NCBI RefSeq assembly: GCF_024138165.1
Contig: NZ_CP100000.1
Span: 3,658,001 to 3,722,000, forward strand
From: Halorussus vallis
GTDB lineage: Archaea; Halobacteriota; Halobacteria; Halobacteriales; Haladaptataceae
Direction of reading: 5' to 3'
DNA length: 64,000 nt
This document shows positions 14,437 through 22,783 of the stretch, one piece after another. Numbering within the stretch: the first letter of the stretch is position 1; each line of letters opens with the position of its first letter. Under the pieces are notes generated by a model, which had not been told where the DNA came from, did not search any database, and saw only the letters and a program-made list of their open reading frames with translations. The translations under genes were made by a program, and so were the position numbers.

Positions 14437-15114
14437 ATGTTGAGCGACGTGATGGAGGACTACCTCAAGGCTATCTACGCGCTCCAGCGGGAGGGAGAGA
14501 GCCCCGTCTCGACCTCCGCCATCGCGGAGTACCTTGACGTGACGCCGCCCACGGTGACGAGCATGGTCGAGAAACTCGCCGACCGCGGACTGGTCGAGCG
14601 CGAGAAGTACAAGGGAGTCGAACTCACCGCCGAGGGCGAAACCGTCGCGCTCGAAGTGCTGCGCCACCACCGCCTGCTGGAGTCGTACCTCACCGAGCAC
14701 CTCGACTACTCGTGGAGCGAGGTCCACGAGGAGGCCGACACGCTCGAACACCACATCAGCGAGGAGTTCGAGCGCCGGGTCGCCGAGGCGCTGGGCGACC
14801 CCGAGGTCGACCCCCACGGCGACCCCATCCCGGGCGCCGACCTCACGCCGCCCGAGGAAACCGGCGTGACGCCGCTGTCGGACCACGAGCCGGGCGACCG
14901 CCTCGTCGTCGCCCGCGTCAGCGACCGCGACGAGGAGGAACTGCGCTACCTCGCCGACGCCGGCATCGCGCCGGGCACAGAACTCGAAGTCGTCGACGTG
15001 GCGCCGTTCGGCATGGTGACCGTCTCGCTGGTCGACGACGACGCCGAGCAGAGCCTCCCCGAGAACGTCGCCCGGTCGATCCGGGTCCGCAGCGCCGAGG
15101 AGGTCCGGGCGTGA
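14437..15114 (+). CDS. DtxR/MntR-family metal-dependent regulator with FeoA-like domain
   Basis: The 225-residue regulator has an N-terminal winged helix (EDYLKAIYALQREGESPVSTSAIAEYLDVTPPTVTSMVE is the region at residues 5-43). A dimerisation and metal domain follows with HHRLLESYL, and EVHEEADTLEHHISEEFERR supplies the metal-binding Glu and His. A C-terminal SH3/FeoA-like domain starts near residue 155. The start overlaps no other gene, and a palindromic operator precedes it. Its stop overlaps the start of a GDT1-type transporter (GTGA), so the regulator and the exporters are one operon, suggesting Mn2+ sensing. The metal is inferred from the neighbours, not shown. Confidence 0.88.
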   Translation: MLSDVMEDYLKAIYALQREGESPVSTSAIAEYLDVTPPTVTSMVEKLADRGLVEREKYKGVELTAEGETVALEVLRHHRLLESYLTEHLDYSWSEVHEEADTLEHHISEEFERRVAEALGDPEVDPHGDPIPGADLTPPEETGVTPLSDHEPGDRLVVARVSDRDEEELRYLADAGIAPGTELEVVDVAPFGMVTVSLVDDDAEQSLPENVARSIRVRSAEEVRA

Positions 15115-15902
15115 CCGCGGCGGTACCGTCGCCGGTACCGCTCGCGGCCGGACTCGACTCGGTGGTCGAACGCTACGACGCCTACGGCCCGCTGGTCGCG
15201 GCGTTCCTCGCCAACACGCTGGCGACGTTCGGCGACAAGGGCCAACTCGTCGTGGTGACCCTCGCCTCGCGCTACGACGCCGAGAAGGTGTTCGTCGGCG
15301 CGATGGGCGCGTTCGTCGCCTGGAGCGCGATCGAGGTGACCGTCGGCCAGATGGTCGTGAGCGCCGTCTCCGACACGGCGATGACGCTGGCGACCGGCGG
15401 ACTGTTCGTCGCGTTCGGCCTCTGGACGCTGTGGACCGCGGTCGGCCGCTTCCGCCGGCGCGTCGGCGACCCCGACGGACCGCTCCTGACCGGCGGCGGC
15501 GTCGACGTGGGGCTGACGGGGCGACTCCTGCCCGACGTGGTCCTCGACCGCGTGGGGACCCACGGCGGCGTCCTGACGAGTTTCGTCTTCATCGCGTTCG
15601 CCGAGTTCGGCGACAAGACCCAACTGCTGACCATCACGCTCGCCGGGACGTTCCCCGACCGGCCGCTGTCGGTGTTCGTCGGCGTGGTGGCCGCGCTCGG
15701 CCTCCGGACCGGCGTCGACGCCGTCATCGGCGAGAAGTTCGAGCGCTGGATTCCGACCCGGTGGCTGGAACTGGTCGCGGCGGTCGTCTTCGTGACGTTC
15801 GGCCTGGTCGTCCTCGGCGTCGTCCCGACGACCCTCCTGCTCGGCCTGCTCGCCGGCCTCCTCGCGCTCGGTGCGGCGCGGGCGGTCCGGTCACTGCGGT
15901 AG
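15111..15902 (+). CDS. TMEM165/GDT1-family cation transporter, first copy
   Basis: The 263-residue integral membrane protein belongs to the UPF0016/GDT1 family (MneA, TMEM165), which exports Mn2+ (and Ca2+) in exchange for H+. It has two homologous halves. The second half carries the full signature AEFGDKTQLLTI, and the first the altered ATFGDKGQL, lacking the first Glu. The C-terminus is hydrophobic. It begins with a GTG overlapping the regulator's stop (GTGA), and it is followed 79 bases later by a paralogue. The pair probably protects the cell from Mn overload. Confidence 0.85.
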   Translation: MTAAVPSPVPLAAGLDSVVERYDAYGPLVAAFLANTLATFGDKGQLVVVTLASRYDAEKVFVGAMGAFVAWSAIEVTVGQMVVSAVSDTAMTLATGGLFVAFGLWTLWTAVGRFRRRVGDPDGPLLTGGGVDVGLTGRLLPDVVLDRVGTHGGVLTSFVFIAFAEFGDKTQLLTITLAGTFPDRPLSVFVGVVAALGLRTGVDAVIGEKFERWIPTRWLELVAAVVFVTFGLVVLGVVPTTLLLGLLAGLLALGAARAVRSLR

Positions 15903-17605: not shown

Positions 17606-18316
17606 CTACGGCCGCCGGTGGCCGCGCGGCGACGACGTCTTCTCGCTGTCCATCTCCGGCACCTCCATCTCCAGCCACTCCCGGAACCACTTCACGCGCT
17701 TGAGCCGGCGGTGGGCGATGCTCTCGGCGGTGTCGCTCCGGACGCGGTCGGCGGCGTCCTTGCCGCGTTCGAGCACGCGCTCGACCATCTCCGCCGAGTC
17801 CATGTGGGTGCGAGCCTCGTAGCCCATCCGCAGCAGCATCAGCGCCGTCCCGTTCGCGCCCACCTTGTCGAGCAGGTCGGCCTCGATGAGACACCGAGTC
17901 TCCAGCGAGAGGTTGTCGAGGTCGCCCTGGTAGGAGTGGTTCTCGACGGCCTTGGCGACCTCGTCGATGAACGACTCGGGGAAGTCGCCGTGGGTTTCGA
18001 GGTACTTCCGGGCGATGCGCGCGCCCTCCTCGGCGTGGACCTCCTGGTCGGCGTCGAGTTTCGCGATGTCGTGGAACAGCGCGGCGACCCGCGTCACGTC
18101 GACGTTCGCGCCCTCGGCCTCGGCGATGGTTTGGGCAAGGTCGACCACGTTGAGGATGTGGTTGAAGCGGTACTCCGCCGAGTGCCAGGGGTACCACCGC
18201 ATCCGACCCCCGCCGTCCTCGTTCTCGACGCTGGCCGAGAGATACTCGTAGACGAACTCCTTCATCTCATCGAGTTCCGACTCGGTGACGGGCGATTCTT
18301 TAATCTCGACGCCCAC
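17606..18316 (-). CDS. HD-domain phosphohydrolase
   Basis: The 236-residue cytoplasmic protein is an HD-domain metal phosphohydrolase. The signature residues are His45/His53 (HSAEYRFNHILN), His82-Asp83 (LFHDIAKLD), His94 in EVHAEEGARI, and a conserved D near residue 150 in LIEADLLDKVGANG. The substrate is unknown, as HD proteins act on nucleotides, nucleic acids or cyclic nucleotides. It has an unusually long C-terminal helical region. It lies alone, and the start ATG is well separated from other genes. Confidence 0.85.
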   Translation of the reverse strand: MGVEIKESPVTESELDEMKEFVYEYLSASVENEDGGGRMRWYPWHSAEYRFNHILNVVDLAQTIAEAEGANVDVTRVAALFHDIAKLDADQEVHAEEGARIARKYLETHGDFPESFIDEVAKAVENHSYQGDLDNLSLETRCLIEADLLDKVGANGTALMLLRMGYEARTHMDSAEMVERVLERGKDAADRVRSDTAESIAHRRLKRVKWFREWLEMEVPEMDSEKTSSPRGHRRP

Positions 18317-18441
18317 GAAACCACCTCGATTGTCCGACGTTCGCGTTCATTGTTACTCGCATAAACGTATGATTGACTCTTTAGAGTTACGACGAGCGAA
18401 TCGAGTAGCATTCGCCCCTTCGCGCGGGTACGACCGAGCGT

Positions 18442-18591
18442 ATGACCGAAACTCCCTCCGTCGATTCCTCCGGCGAGCGTGTTTTCGAGACGACAGTCGA
18501 GGGGGCCGACGGTGACCGCACGACGTACTACCCAGGCGGGCCGAGAGACGGGGGAGGAGCGACGAAGAGCGGTCGGAGGTGGTTCAGGTGA
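18442..18591 (+). CDS. Putative 49-residue small protein
   Basis: An ATG-led reading frame encodes 49 residues, starting MTETPSVDSSGERVFETTV and ending GGGATKSGRRWFR. It is rich in Gly, Ser and Thr, with a YYPGG stretch in the middle. The length and codon use fit haloarchaeal small proteins, but there is no recognisable family. Its end overlaps the 3' end of the convergent membrane protein by eight bases. Confidence 0.4.
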   Translation: MTETPSVDSSGERVFETTVEGADGDRTTYYPGGPRDGGGATKSGRRWFR

Positions 18592-18874
18592 GCCACCGGC
18601 CGACGCGGCGGAGCAGTCGAGCCGTGAGCGTCGGACGCTCTCGGACGTTCCCGGCGTCACGCCGGACGTTCCTCTCGGGTTCCTCGGATTCGCGCGGTGG
18701 CATTCCGGCGCGGTGGCGGTCCCGGGACCGCAACAGGTCGCGCGTCGAAAGGACGACCAGCGCGGCGCCGATGAGCGCCCAGACGACCAGCGGGGACTGC
18801 TGGACGCGCTGGAAGAACGCGTATCCGACGCCGACGGTCAGCACCGACGCGGCGGCGACCCACGTCAGTTCCAT
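18584..18874 (-). CDS. Small two-helix membrane protein
   Basis: A 96-residue protein with two hydrophobic segments, ELTWVAAASVLTVGVGYAF and LVVWALIGAALVVLS, followed by a basic cytoplasmic tail (RDLLRSRDRHRAG). The start is the ATG giving MELTWVA, 20 codons inside a longer frame with an unsuitable upstream part. Function is unknown. Confidence 0.6.
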   Translation of the reverse strand: MELTWVAAASVLTVGVGYAFFQRVQQSPLVVWALIGAALVVLSTRDLLRSRDRHRAGMPPRESEEPERNVRRDAGNVRERPTLTARLLRRVGRWLT

Positions 18875-18979
18875 CGCTCTCTGTTTTTGAGTCGGTCGAC
18901 GAGTCTGTACAGGGGCGGGGCCATGCGTGTGCACGGACGGTTCCTACGCTTTTTGTTATGTGTGCGCTGGATAACTATT

Positions 18980-19000
18980 AGGCGGTGTCAAAGACCGCCT
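18980..19000 (-). terminator. Short hairpin downstream of small membrane gene
   Basis: Inverted repeat AGGCGGT/ACCGCCT with a 7-base loop (GTCAAAG), about 100 bases beyond the stop of the minus-strand gene at 19100-19309. Possible terminator. Confidence 0.35.
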
Positions 19001-19099
19001 GAATCGGGGTCCCCTGCCCGGTAGGGTGCGTTTACCGCCGGCGCAGGCGGGACGGTAGGTCGAACCTTCGGAGCGCGAGGTCGGCGGTCGGCCGAGAAC

Positions 19100-19309
19100 T
19101 CAACCCAGCGCGTGGGCGACCGTGACTACGCCGACGAGCAGACAGACCAGCCCCATCCGGCGCTTGGCGCGCGCGAGCGCGTCGGTGACCGTCGGCGGGA
19201 AACTGAACAGGCGGGACTGCGCTCTGAGTACGGTCGAGGGGAACAGGTAGTCGGCGAACCCCCACAGGACGAGGACCGCGCCGAGTCCGAGTTCGACGGG
19301 GTGGGACAT
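19100..19309 (-). CDS. Small membrane protein
   Basis: A 69-residue protein with two hydrophobic segments (VELGLGAVLVLWGFADYLFP and GLVCLLVGVVTVAHALG) joined by a basic loop containing LFSFPPTVTDALARAKRRM. It begins with a standard ATG. No family is recognised, and its only neighbour is the gene-poor stretch leading to the methylase. Confidence 0.6.
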   Translation of the reverse strand: MSHPVELGLGAVLVLWGFADYLFPSTVLRAQSRLFSFPPTVTDALARAKRRMGLVCLLVGVVTVAHALG

Positions 19310-19743
19310 GGGGAGTGCTAGTCAACGTGAAGCACGAAATAGGTACTCCCTGGAGGCTGCCGGTCACGAAACCGTTACGAAACCGCTTCGAGAGCCGTCT
19401 GACGGCGACACACGACCTACTTCGAGCAAGTCGGTGCGACCTGCGAAGGCTACTTCCGTGACAGCTTCGGAGCACCGTCGGCAGTACGATTCTCGACCGT
19501 ACAGATACCGTAGTACGGACGCGGTGGTTCTCCCCGTCGAATATTGTGCCGCCCGAAATGAATGGACGCTCTTATCTGCCGGGTCGAGTGATTTCTCCGC
19601 AACGAGTACGCGGACGCTCCCGAAGTCTGTCGACGAAGCCGAACGAGTCACGGTCGTCCGGATGCCATGAAGGAAAACGACGACGATAGACCCAAGTGTC
19701 GGTCCCTCCGAGTCAGTAGCAACTGGAAGTCGCGTCGATAAAC
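19310..19743. other. 434-base gene-poor stretch before the methylase
   Basis: The G+C is visibly lower than in the surroundings. One 95-residue open frame exists on the minus strand (19364-19651) but has no recognisable family, no TATA box and lies opposite another frame, so I do not call it. A decayed gene or the border of an acquired segment is possible. Confidence 0.5.
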
Positions 19744-22026
19744 ATGTCCGACAACTCTTATTACTGGTTGACCGCCCCGCTGCTCCTTTCGGAGAAATCG
19801 GAGTTAGAGGCGAATCTCCCCGACGAGTTCTACGCCGAGAACGAGTCCGTCGAGTATCGACATCGCCGCCACCAGAAGGACGCCGGAGCGTACTACACCG
19901 ACGAACATCTGGCGGAGGTACTGGCTGATATCGCCATCGAGCGGCGCGTAGAGCCGATAGCAGAGAAGGTGGAAAACGCGGCGAGGAACGATGCCGAAGA
20001 GGAGGCGCGGGACCTCGCCGACGGACTTCTCGATTTGAAAATCTGCGACCCCACTGTCGGTGGCGGTGTCTTCCTGAGCAAACTCGCCCCTCGACTCGAA
20101 GACGTCCTCAACCGAGTCCGCGAGGTCGTTTCGGCGGAAGGACTCGAACTCGACCACGAGGCGCTCGACGGGGAACGGGACGTGGCCGAACACGTTTACT
20201 CGCGGATGCTGTACGGCGTCGACCTCGACGAGCGCGCGCTGGCGGACGCGTGTTCGCACATCGCCGAGGACTCTTCGCTCTCGGAATCGGAAGTCCGGAA
20301 CCTCATCGCACCGAATCTGAAGCAAGGAAACGCACTGCTCGACCCCGTCCCGCCCGAAGCGTGGCCGAACAGGAACACGCTACATTTCCCCGCGAAACTC
20401 GGTCAGTTGGTCGGCTATCGAAAACGGCTCCGAGAGGGTCAACGCGATGCGGAGACGCTTCGAGAGTGCCTGGACCTGAAAGAGCAGATCGTCTCGCGGA
20501 CGGCCGGCCGGGTTCTCGACCGGTTCCCCGACTGGTATCTCGAAGACGACCAGCCCTTTTGCTGGCCCCTCGAATTCCCGGAGGCGTTCTACGACGAGAA
20601 CGGGCGCCTCCTCGATTCACCGGGGTTCGACGTGATAATCGGTAATCCACCGTGGGACGTCGTGAAGTGCAACGACCGGGAGTTCTTCGATACCGTCGAA
20701 CCGGACTTCTCGCAACGAAGCAGAGCGAAACGGGACGAACTCAAAGCGGACCTGCTCGAAGACGACGAGGTGCGGGCCGACTACGACCGGTACGTCGAAC
20801 GTATCGAGCACTTTCTGGACTTCGTCAAGTCCGACACCTACTACCGGCATCAGACCAGCGGGCGATACGGACACAGTTACAACAAGTACAAACTCGCCAC
20901 GGAACTCGCGTACAACGTCGCGAGCGAAGGAGGAGACGTCCTCCTCATCACGCCTTCGGGCATTCTCGGTGAGGCGGGGTCCACCGCACTCCGAGAACTG
21001 CTCTTCGACGGAGGGACCGTCGATAGTTTCTGGTCGTTCAAGGCACGGTCGGACGTGTTCGAAGGCGTCGACCAGAATCCCGCGATCCAGATCTACACGA
21101 AGGGCGGGAGGACCGAGAACCTCCGCTACGTCGACGGTATCGAGTCGGCGGACGAGTTCGGTCGACTGTATCACTCGGACGAAGTACCGCAGATCTCCGG
21201 GGAACTGGTCCGCGAGGCGGCCCCGGAGACGTTCTCGCTGATTCCTGTCCGCGACGAAACCGGCCTCAACGTCCTCGACACCCTCACGTCGCACCCCCTC
21301 GCCGGTGACGACTCGGGCGAGTACTGGAGCGTAACCCCATCACGAGAGATAGACGAGACGAACGATAGACACCACATCGTGGAGGAGGAAACCGCGTACC
21401 CGTTCGTCAAGGGTCGGTGCGTCTTCCCGTACGACCTCCAGCCGGAGGTCATCGACAAGTGGGTGGAGGCGGACTTCCTCGAAACGGAGTGTGAACACGC
21501 GAACGAGTCGCGGGTCGTGTGGCGCGACGTCGCCCGTCCGAGTCTGCGACGGCGGATGTTCGTGACCGTCGTTCCGCCGGAACACGGCATCGGGAACTCG
21601 TTGAACTACGTCGTGCCCGACCAGTCCGAGGACGAGAAACTGTATCTCGCGGCCGTGATGCAGAGTTGGGCGTTCGAGTATCGCGCTCGGCAGATCAGCA
21701 CGAACAGCCACCTGAACATGTACGTGATTCGCCAGGTACCCGTCCCGAGGCTCGACGCCGATACGGAACTGTTCGAGAGCATCGTCTCTCGAACCCGCGA
21801 AATCCTGAATCGAGACGTCGAGGACGGCCGTCGCGAGAGCGTGATGAACGAGATCGACGCCCTCGTCGCTCACGCGTACGGCCTCGACGACGACGAACTC
21901 GAATTCGTCCTCGACTCGTACGAGAAACTGGAAACCGAAACGAAGCAGTCGATACTAAATGCGTACGCTAACTACCGGGGGACGATGACGCAGGTGATGG
22001 GCGATCCACCTCCTCCGAAAAGATAG
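19744..22026 (+). CDS. Eco57I-type N6-adenine DNA methylase, without nuclease domain
   Basis: The 760-residue protein is a class I methyltransferase of the Eco57I/type IIG kind. Motif X is AYYTDEHL (residues 49-56). Motif I is DPTVGGGVFL (102-111), binding S-adenosylmethionine. Motif IV is NPPW at 301-304, the catalytic signature for N6-adenine methylation. The C-terminal part (about 460-760) is the target-recognition region. Unlike true type IIG enzymes there is no PD-(D/E)xK nuclease before motif X, so the protein looks methylation-only. No restriction partner is visible nearby. It sits between a gene-poor stretch and tRNA-Gln, suggesting acquisition. BREX PglX is longer and differs in neighbours. 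Confidence 0.85.
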   Translation: MSDNSYYWLTAPLLLSEKSELEANLPDEFYAENESVEYRHRRHQKDAGAYYTDEHLAEVLADIAIERRVEPIAEKVENAARNDAEEEARDLADGLLDLKICDPTVGGGVFLSKLAPRLEDVLNRVREVVSAEGLELDHEALDGERDVAEHVYSRMLYGVDLDERALADACSHIAEDSSLSESEVRNLIAPNLKQGNALLDPVPPEAWPNRNTLHFPAKLGQLVGYRKRLREGQRDAETLRECLDLKEQIVSRTAGRVLDRFPDWYLEDDQPFCWPLEFPEAFYDENGRLLDSPGFDVIIGNPPWDVVKCNDREFFDTVEPDFSQRSRAKRDELKADLLEDDEVRADYDRYVERIEHFLDFVKSDTYYRHQTSGRYGHSYNKYKLATELAYNVASEGGDVLLITPSGILGEAGSTALRELLFDGGTVDSFWSFKARSDVFEGVDQNPAIQIYTKGGRTENLRYVDGIESADEFGRLYHSDEVPQISGELVREAAPETFSLIPVRDETGLNVLDTLTSHPLAGDDSGEYWSVTPSREIDETNDRHHIVEEETAYPFVKGRCVFPYDLQPEVIDKWVEADFLETECEHANESRVVWRDVARPSLRRRMFVTVVPPEHGIGNSLNYVVPDQSEDEKLYLAAVMQSWAFEYRARQISTNSHLNMYVIRQVPVPRLDADTELFESIVSRTREILNRDVEDGRRESVMNEIDALVAHAYGLDDDELEFVLDSYEKLETETKQSILNAYANYRGTMTQVMGDPPPPKR

Positions 22027-22133
22027 AATTTGGTATCTATTCGTCACGGGCGCGCGCCACGGACCCCATCGTTCGACGCGGGAAGTCGCGGCGAGTATCA
22101 CCGTGAAAAGGTGGATTCGTACCGTTTTGGATA

Positions 22134-22206
22134 TAGTCCCGGGCGGATTCGAACCGCCGTCAATGGCTCCAAAGGCCATTATGATTGGCCACTACACCAC
22201 GGGACT
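22134..22206 (-). tRNA. tRNA-Gln (anticodon UUG)
   Basis: The 73-base minus-strand gene folds as a cloverleaf. Acceptor AGTCCCG pairs with CGGGACT and the discriminator is A. Anticodon stem ATGGC/GCCAT encloses the loop CTTTGGA, giving anticodon TTG. T-stem GGCGG/CCGCC encloses TTCGAAT, after a 4-base variable loop TGAC. The CCA end is not encoded. Its 3' end faces the methylase gene, a common integration point for mobile DNA, but no second copy of the 3' end was found in the window. Confidence 0.92.
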
Positions 22207-22357: not shown

Positions 22358-22783
22358 CTAATCCGCCTCGCTATCCAACAACTCCGCGCACATATCCGCT
22401 TCCGCGCTGAAGCAGTCAGGACACTGGGGTTCGCGGTCGATGATGGTGTCCAACCGCTCGGCCACCGTCTCGTCGATGACGCTCTCCAAGGCCTTGGCCT
22501 CGCTCGGGAACTCCTCGACTTCGAGGACGTTCTTGAGGAAGCGCTCGATGATGCAGTAGGTCTGCAGGGCTTCCCGGGCGCGCTCGATTCCCTCGTCGGT
22601 GAGCCGAACGCCCTTGTACTTCTCGTGGTCGGCGAGTTCGCGCTCCTGGAGTTTGCCGATCATCTCGTTGACGCTGGCCGGACTGACGTCGAGTCGCTCG
22701 GCGAGCGCGCCGGTGGAGGCCGGGCCGTTCTCCATCCGCTGGACGAGGTAGATAGCCTTGAGATACTGGTCTGCCGTATTCAT
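22358..22783 (-). CDS. Short DtxR-family iron-type regulator
   Basis: This 141-residue regulator has the DtxR winged helix (DQYLKAIYLVQRM, then RLDVSPASVNEMIGKLQ), the dimerisation and metal region (YCIIERFLKNVLEVEEFPSEAKALE), and no C-terminal SH3/FeoA domain. It therefore resembles the short archaeal SirR/Idr group. A CPDCFSAEADMC cysteine cluster near the end may bind metal. Its ATG overlaps the stop of the ferritin-like gene upstream (ATGA), so the two are one operon. The context with ferritin-like and SUF genes points to iron sensing. Confidence 0.85.
   Translation of the reverse strand: MNTADQYLKAIYLVQRMENGPASTGALAERLDVSPASVNEMIGKLQERELADHEKYKGVRLTDEGIERAREALQTYCIIERFLKNVLEVEEFPSEAKALESVIDETVAERLDTIIDREPQCPDCFSAEADMCAELLDSEAD

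Follow-up and report, generated by a model that had tools for sequence, protein, structure and literature searches.

A predicted solitary adenine methylase of CamA build, probably acquired, in a variable slot beside tRNA-Gln of Halorussus vallis

Introduction

The locus described here raises the question of what a lone DNA methylase gene does, and how it came to lie, next to the 3′ end of a tRNA-Gln gene in the genome of Halorussus vallis. In Halobacteria, restriction-modification (R-M) genes are patchily distributed and orphan methylases are conserved, according to passages of PMC6471742, in which work by others is also cited as suggesting that orphans come more often via large mobile elements than by decay of R-M systems. 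A preliminary description of the locus had proposed a solitary adenine methylase at a possible integration site that could be an epigenetic regulator, an anti-restriction enzyme or the remnant of a defence island. Below, “the window” is the whole 64,000-nucleotide stretch of DNA analysed (contig NZ_CP100000.1, positions 3,658,001 to 3,722,000), and all coordinates are window positions.

Results

The methylase gene and its surroundings

The methylase gene is located between conserved anchors, in a slot that is bordered by a small conserved open reading frame (ORF) on the left and by the tRNA-Gln gene on the right. The features of this region are as follows:

17606–18316, minus strand: HD-domain protein gene, conserved anchor left of the slot
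18584–18934, minus strand: small ORF of 116 aa, conserved in the genus
19100–19309, minus strand: small ORF of 69 aa, conserved in the genus, left border of the slot
19356–19743, no strand assigned: left portion of the inserted DNA, 58% GC, with no credible gene; conservation with relatives ends at about 19355
19744–22026, plus strand: predicted solitary gamma-class adenine-N6 DNA methyltransferase of 760 aa, with a methylase domain and a target-recognition domain and no nuclease
19885–19899, plus strand: GAYYT, residues 48–52, upstream end of the methylase domain, conserved in comparison with relatives
20047–20073, plus strand: DPTVGGGVF, residues 102–110, motif I, conserved in comparison with relatives
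20644–20655, plus strand: NPPW, residues 301–304, motif IV, conserved in comparison with relatives
22106–22155, minus strand: tRNA-Gln 3′ end and trailer, matching a recurrent att-like core
22134–22206, minus strand: tRNA-Gln (TTG), 73 nt, intronless, 107 bp from the end of the methylase gene
22358–22783, minus strand: gene of a DtxR-type iron-dependent repressor, conserved anchor right of the slot

The methylase ORF starts with ATG and has no internal stops. DPTVGGGVF, which we take to be the SAM-binding motif I, and NPPW, presumably the catalytic motif IV, are both intact, as in the Eco57I superfamily, and the Pfam Eco57I model (PF07669) scores 44.5 bits on the protein, against a gathering cut-off of 25.3. 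No nuclease domain was found in it by Pfam, in an AlphaFold2 model or by fold matching; with 47 residues preceding GAYYT, it does not have the fused N-terminal nuclease of a type IIG enzyme. The product is thus an Eco57I-type adenine methylase of 760 residues with no nuclease domain, as the preliminary description had it.

Nine neighbouring genes were scanned with Pfam and matched iron-dependent repressors, GDT1, LysE, HD and SufBD families, or nothing. With PADLOC, ten neighbours returned nothing or weak helix-turn-helix matches, and no restriction or defence gene. No helicase gene, restriction gene or cognate nuclease was therefore detected among these neighbours, and the gene is locally an orphan, which agrees with the earlier view of it as solitary. 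The best whole-length family model, NCBIfam TIGR02987 (Alw26I/Eco31I/Esp3I adenine methylases), reaches 192.6 bits, a score far below the curated cut-off of 353.5 and thus short of membership, and the partners of that family, C5-methylase and nuclease genes, were not found adjacent to the methylase gene. BREX models scored 13.8–20.5 bits against cut-offs of 500–900, the DISARM DrmMI model gave only partial and discontinuous matches, and no BREX or DISARM partner gene is present among the ten neighbours.

The GC content is 61–62% at 19–23 kb, as compared with up to 74% elsewhere in the window, and the GC3 of the methylase gene is 0.78, versus 0.87–0.94 in seven other window genes. The lower-GC flank that had been noted is thus real but modest, as 36–37 kb also has 62% GC. 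The same flank had been called gene-poor; this holds only for about 19356–19743, since the two small ORFs at 18584–18934 and 19100–19309 are conserved in the genus. A 120-aa ORF at 19308–19670 was considered as a gene or partner and rejected: it is not acidic, overlaps an antisense frame and has no Pfam match above cut-off.

The predicted fold resembles CamA

An AlphaFold2 model of the methylase was obtained with an alignment of 25 sequences (mean pLDDT 82.2, pTM 0.82; residues 1–49 are unreliable). Foldseek ranked CamA (C. difficile adenine methyltransferase A; PDB 7LT5, 7RFK) first, followed by M.BseCI and PglX/BrxX. In the VIA-align comparison, in which only the presence of a fold in the list is informative and its absence is no evidence, residues 30–714 of the model were superimposed on residues 14–577 of CamA (Z 27.3, rmsd 6.1, 483 residues). 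CamA belongs to the same gamma class, has a methylase domain followed by a recognition domain and has no nuclease; the fold match spans nearly the whole protein, but identity in the structural alignment is 16%. Passages of PMC8187626 describe CamA as an orphan m6A methylase, built of a catalytic and a C-terminal recognition domain, that is required for normal sporulation in C. difficile and is rare outside that species. PglX/BrxX of BREX (PDB 8C45, 9EWZ) has the methylase fold in common with the window protein (Z 22–23), but is 12–13% identical to it, is about 1200 aa long and belongs to a multi-gene defence system.

Because the match to CamA covers model residues 30–714, the methylase, as modelled, would be a complete unit of CamA build, and thus not evidently a fragment. 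It is from this fold and from the motifs that we infer its function.

Relatives of the methylase are distant

Outside the own genome, the best match in 59 genomes of relatives is 29% identical over methylase residues 246–578; in 391 Halobacteria, the corresponding figure is 33% over residues 258–602. Ten of the 391 genomes, the own included, match the methylase at E ≤ 1e-30, no other sampled member of the genus being among them, and a match to TIGR02987 at E ≤ 1e-25 was obtained in the source genome only (1 of 391). On plasmids, 131 records match the methylase, all at less than 60% identity, and the best full-length matches, from Lactobacillales plasmids, have 24–26% identity. Genome contigs yielded no close relative when searched with the single protein and at least 80 loci when searched with a methylase alignment, with 20–32% identity among the matches listed. 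In viral contigs, no match was found with the single protein and three distant ones with the alignment; phages gave one distant match, and the PDB gave none by sequence. In a tree of 61 sequences, the methylase is placed on a long branch (2.03) with no supported sister. Given these low identities and the long branch without a supported sister, the methylase appears to be a divergent lineage of its own.

The source genome also has a pair of other Eco57I-type methylases that occurs twice on one smaller contig (G000:C4, at about 18–24 kb and 139–145 kb), likely a duplicated locus.

A census of relatives covered 104 loci with 112 ORFs, some of which are cut by contig or locus ends. More than 200 extra residues are found N-terminal to the part matched by the window methylase in 87 of the 112, and in 18 of the best 20 relatives a helicase-type ORF, similar to a reference helicase, lies on the same stretch. 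Methylases of 1100–1300 aa located by helicase-type genes (in Lactobacillales plasmids and cyanobacteria; DrmMI/PglX-like) resemble the window protein over the full length of the methylase and recognition parts (24–26% identity), but have 290–400 more N-terminal residues and the helicase-type neighbour, both of which are missing here. One could therefore suppose that the window gene is a degenerate remnant of such a larger restriction system, minus its N-terminal part and its partner. We consider this distinctly unlikely. When 92 N-terminal regions of relatives were compared with positions 18300–19800, the best match to a lost N-terminal nuclease had an E-value of 0.006 in a tiny database, which is unconvincing; what remains of the protein would itself form an entire unit of CamA type, with intact motifs and a start of its own; and short members of the group exist. 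Likewise, the defence-island remnant that had been suggested was found neither among the neighbours by Pfam and PADLOC nor in this upstream search.

Short members are exemplified by two true TIGR02987 proteins, obtained from 291 genomes that belong to the same class as G422 (an Anabaena). They are 557 aa long, lack the N-terminal domain, as does the window methylase, and are 26% identical to it over about 450 residues. Both adjoin a C5-methylase-like ORF and one also adjoins an ORF with an HNH-like motif (labels assigned by eye), whereas the window methylase stands alone. This clustering, and the fact that TIGR02987 is the best whole-length model of the window protein, albeit below the cut-off, would be in line with an R-M system of two or three genes, the nuclease of which has escaped recognition or is encoded at another place in the genome. 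A partner of this kind may be present, unlinked or unrecognised, in the 5-Mb genome, since the sequences of type II nucleases make them difficult to recognise, as stated in a section of PMC10609329. However, the slot offers no candidate partner gene, all frames in 19356–19743 being non-acidic, and we regard such a system as highly improbable.

The methylase gene lies in a variable slot

All 18 genomes of the genus, the own included, have the DtxR-type repressor gene beside tRNA-Gln, and 17 of the 18, again with the own, have the HD protein anchor. Slot length, counted from the last conserved small ORF up to the 3′ end of the tRNA, was measured in 15 of the 18 genomes; in G001, G003 and G012, the left anchor and the tRNA are on separate contigs or beyond the stretch fetched. 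The slot is 2824 bp long in the window and 172, 242, 269, 454, 457, 647, 673, 937, 1023, 1024, 1070, 2194, 2680 and 7831 bp long in 14 same-genus relatives. Short ends aside, slot DNA is common to three pairs of genomes only (G006/G011, G008/G005 and G014/G004). Protease-like, dehalogenase-like and oxidoreductase-like ORFs were recognised by eye in the slots of relatives; these slots hold unrelated contents or none, and no ortholog of the methylase was found in the genus. With a slot so variable, contents so unrelated and conservation on the left that ends at about 19355, the comparison places the methylase gene within a predicted lineage-specific insertion of roughly 2.75 kb, and the gene itself appears to be a lineage-specific acquisition. 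Comparison between relatives, which the preliminary description had put forward as a check, thus reveals that the gene and its flank are not conserved in all relatives.

Several other differences between relatives were observed around the slot. In 16 of 17 relatives, the HD gene is separated from the small ORF by a gene of ~240 aa, putatively AlaX-like to judge by a motif, which is missing in the window (18317–18583). Six of the 17 (L054, L056, L062, L065, L066 and L067) carry an HNH-endonuclease-like gene, matching PF01844 in L056, between tRNA-Gln and the DtxR gene; all six have an intron-containing tRNA-Gln, and the gene is absent in the window. In five relatives (L054, L060, L061, L063 and L064), extra 12–13-nt copies of the tRNA-Gln 5′ end are found upstream of the tRNA, in the stretch that separates it from the DtxR gene.

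The distribution of the methylase bears on the possibility that it is an epigenetic regulator, i.e., a stand-alone methylase kept, like CamA in C. difficile, for marks that tune host expression. The gene is intact, and its product has the architecture of CamA, the orphan needed for normal sporulation (PMC8187626, in part). On the other hand, persistent orphan methylases of Halobacteria are widely conserved in their clades, according to portions of PMC6471742 and PMC10609329, and the window methylase has no ortholog in its genus or among the 391 Halobacteria. CamA is likewise rare outside its species, so rarity alone is no bar to a regulatory role; CamA is, however, conserved within that species, whereas the window methylase was found in one genome of those searched. 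We therefore view a regulator as unlikely; most likely, the gene is an accessory one that was acquired, and not a conserved regulator.

The tRNA-Gln 3′ end carries a recurrent core

Since tRNA-Gln is encoded on the minus strand (22134–22206), the methylase gene lies on its 3′ side, 107 bp away, and its reported position at the tRNA 3′ end is correct. An 18-mer that follows the tRNA was found, with one mismatch, in four other Halobacteria among 391. A search of the same 391 genomes with a 33-letter core (tRNA 3′ end plus trailer) and up to 3 mismatches retrieved 11 places in 9 genomes, and the reversed control retrieved none. Four of these places are at a full tRNA-Gln, which is intronless in the source genome and G070 and contains an intron in G053 and G237; the other seven (in G318, G070, G278, G210 and G360, and two in G405) are without a full tRNA-Gln. 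Beyond this sample, the core is present at the intron-containing tRNA-Gln of G013 and, without a full tRNA, on plasmids of Natrinema gelatinilyticum (twice) and N. salinisoli (once). An alignment of nine core sites has only ~45 bp common to all, with flanks that mostly differ; besides 22106–22155 of the window, the core loci are L195, L197, L200, L202, L234, L236, L237 and L241.

Integrase candidates in the fetched stretches were selected with a motif pattern and for their resemblance to the L195 integrase. In G405, two core copies, 11.3 kb apart and in one orientation, enclose a tyrosine integrase gene (PF00589, 1.9e-16). In G210, a GmrSD restriction gene is located between two core copies, and a close relative of the G405 integrase is encoded 4.2 kb outside. 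Such a recurrent tRNA-Gln core has the appearance expected of an att core from a mobile family.

In the window, no second tRNA 3′ end was found over 64 kb with a 22-mer and up to 3 mismatches, and prefixes of the tRNA 3′ end of 14–40 nt gave no repeat at up to 20% mismatches. The repeated tRNA end that had been looked for to the left is thus absent from these 64 kb. A degenerate core seen by eye at the left junction, in the window and in G013, was dropped because its local alignment score is at background: among 4251 control windows, a share of 0.51 (window) and 0.83 (G013) reached the score of the junction. The window ORFs include no relative of the L195 integrase. Viral contigs contained no match to an 18-mer and a 23-mer of the core, and phages none to a 71-nt stretch. 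As the trailer also stands at the intron-containing tRNA-Gln genes of G013, G053 and G237, which are of different families, the window trailer could be an old trailer and not an att core. Integration at tRNA-Gln, as proposed earlier, is therefore partly supported: the core occurs on plasmids and around or near a tyrosine integrase gene, but neither a second copy of it nor a relative of the L195 integrase was found in the window.

The tRNA-Gln intron is missing

A 31–32-nt intron interrupts the anticodon loop of tRNA-Gln in 14 of 17 same-genus relatives (loci L053–L070); the Haloferax volcanii tRNA-Gln intron is given as 31 nt in an excerpt of PMC7714728. Within the genus, intronless tRNA-Gln was found in the window, G001, G009 and G012, so the loss is patchy. 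A tree of three flanking genes unites the window with G017 (support 0.97) and then with G006 (0.86). Both of these nearest relatives have kept the intron, and their exons are identical to the window tRNA-Gln. In another family, G070 has an intronless tRNA-Gln identical to that of the window, with the core. In G318 (L234, about 15087–15140), an intronless tRNA-Gln 3′ half is followed by the core, with no 5′ half, near an MCM helicase gene.

Integration of an intronless 3′ half would rebuild tRNA-Gln without the intron, and mobile elements would in this way erase haloarchaeal tRNA introns. The process would mirror the gain of introns from an intron-containing attP that is proposed in part of PMC3293823, where attP-attB mismatches are described as inherited by the rebuilt tRNA. 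It is thus conceivable, and we advance it only tentatively, that the methylase gene is cargo left stranded by a plasmid- or virus-like element, the core of which carried an intronless tRNA-Gln 3′ half with its trailer and the integration of which rebuilt the tRNA in intronless form. G001, G009 and G012 lack both the intron and the core, which points to other routes of loss there, and the window tRNA-Gln may also have lost its intron precisely by another route.

Discussion

Taken as a whole, we think it probable that the gene encodes an intact, horizontally acquired orphan methylase, CamA-like and probably mobile-borne, with a protective or anti-restriction function as its likeliest role. By analogy with CamA, the enzyme would most likely work alone. 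Judging from fold and motifs, its methylase domain and C-terminal recognition domain would clamp DNA, flip out one adenine within a short asymmetric site and methylate it at N6. The comparison of relatives suggests that the lineage gained the gene, an accessory one, in the slot that extends from the conserved small ORF to the 3′ side of tRNA-Gln; it was probably brought by, or is a leftover of, a mobile element. At present, it may modify host and element DNA with no cognate nuclease involved; this protective or anti-restriction role is the weakest step of the scheme. An orphan with a patchy pattern fits acquisition from a mobile source.

As an orphan adenine methylase, the enzyme is of a known kind. 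It adds a divergent orphan of CamA build to the archaea, within a group in which orphans are usually conserved and R-M genes are patchily distributed. Of broader interest is the site: a tRNA-Gln slot that is filled and emptied inside a single genus, an intron that is intermittent and a recombination-like core in common with haloarchaeal plasmids make the removal of tRNA introns by mobile elements a testable proposition.
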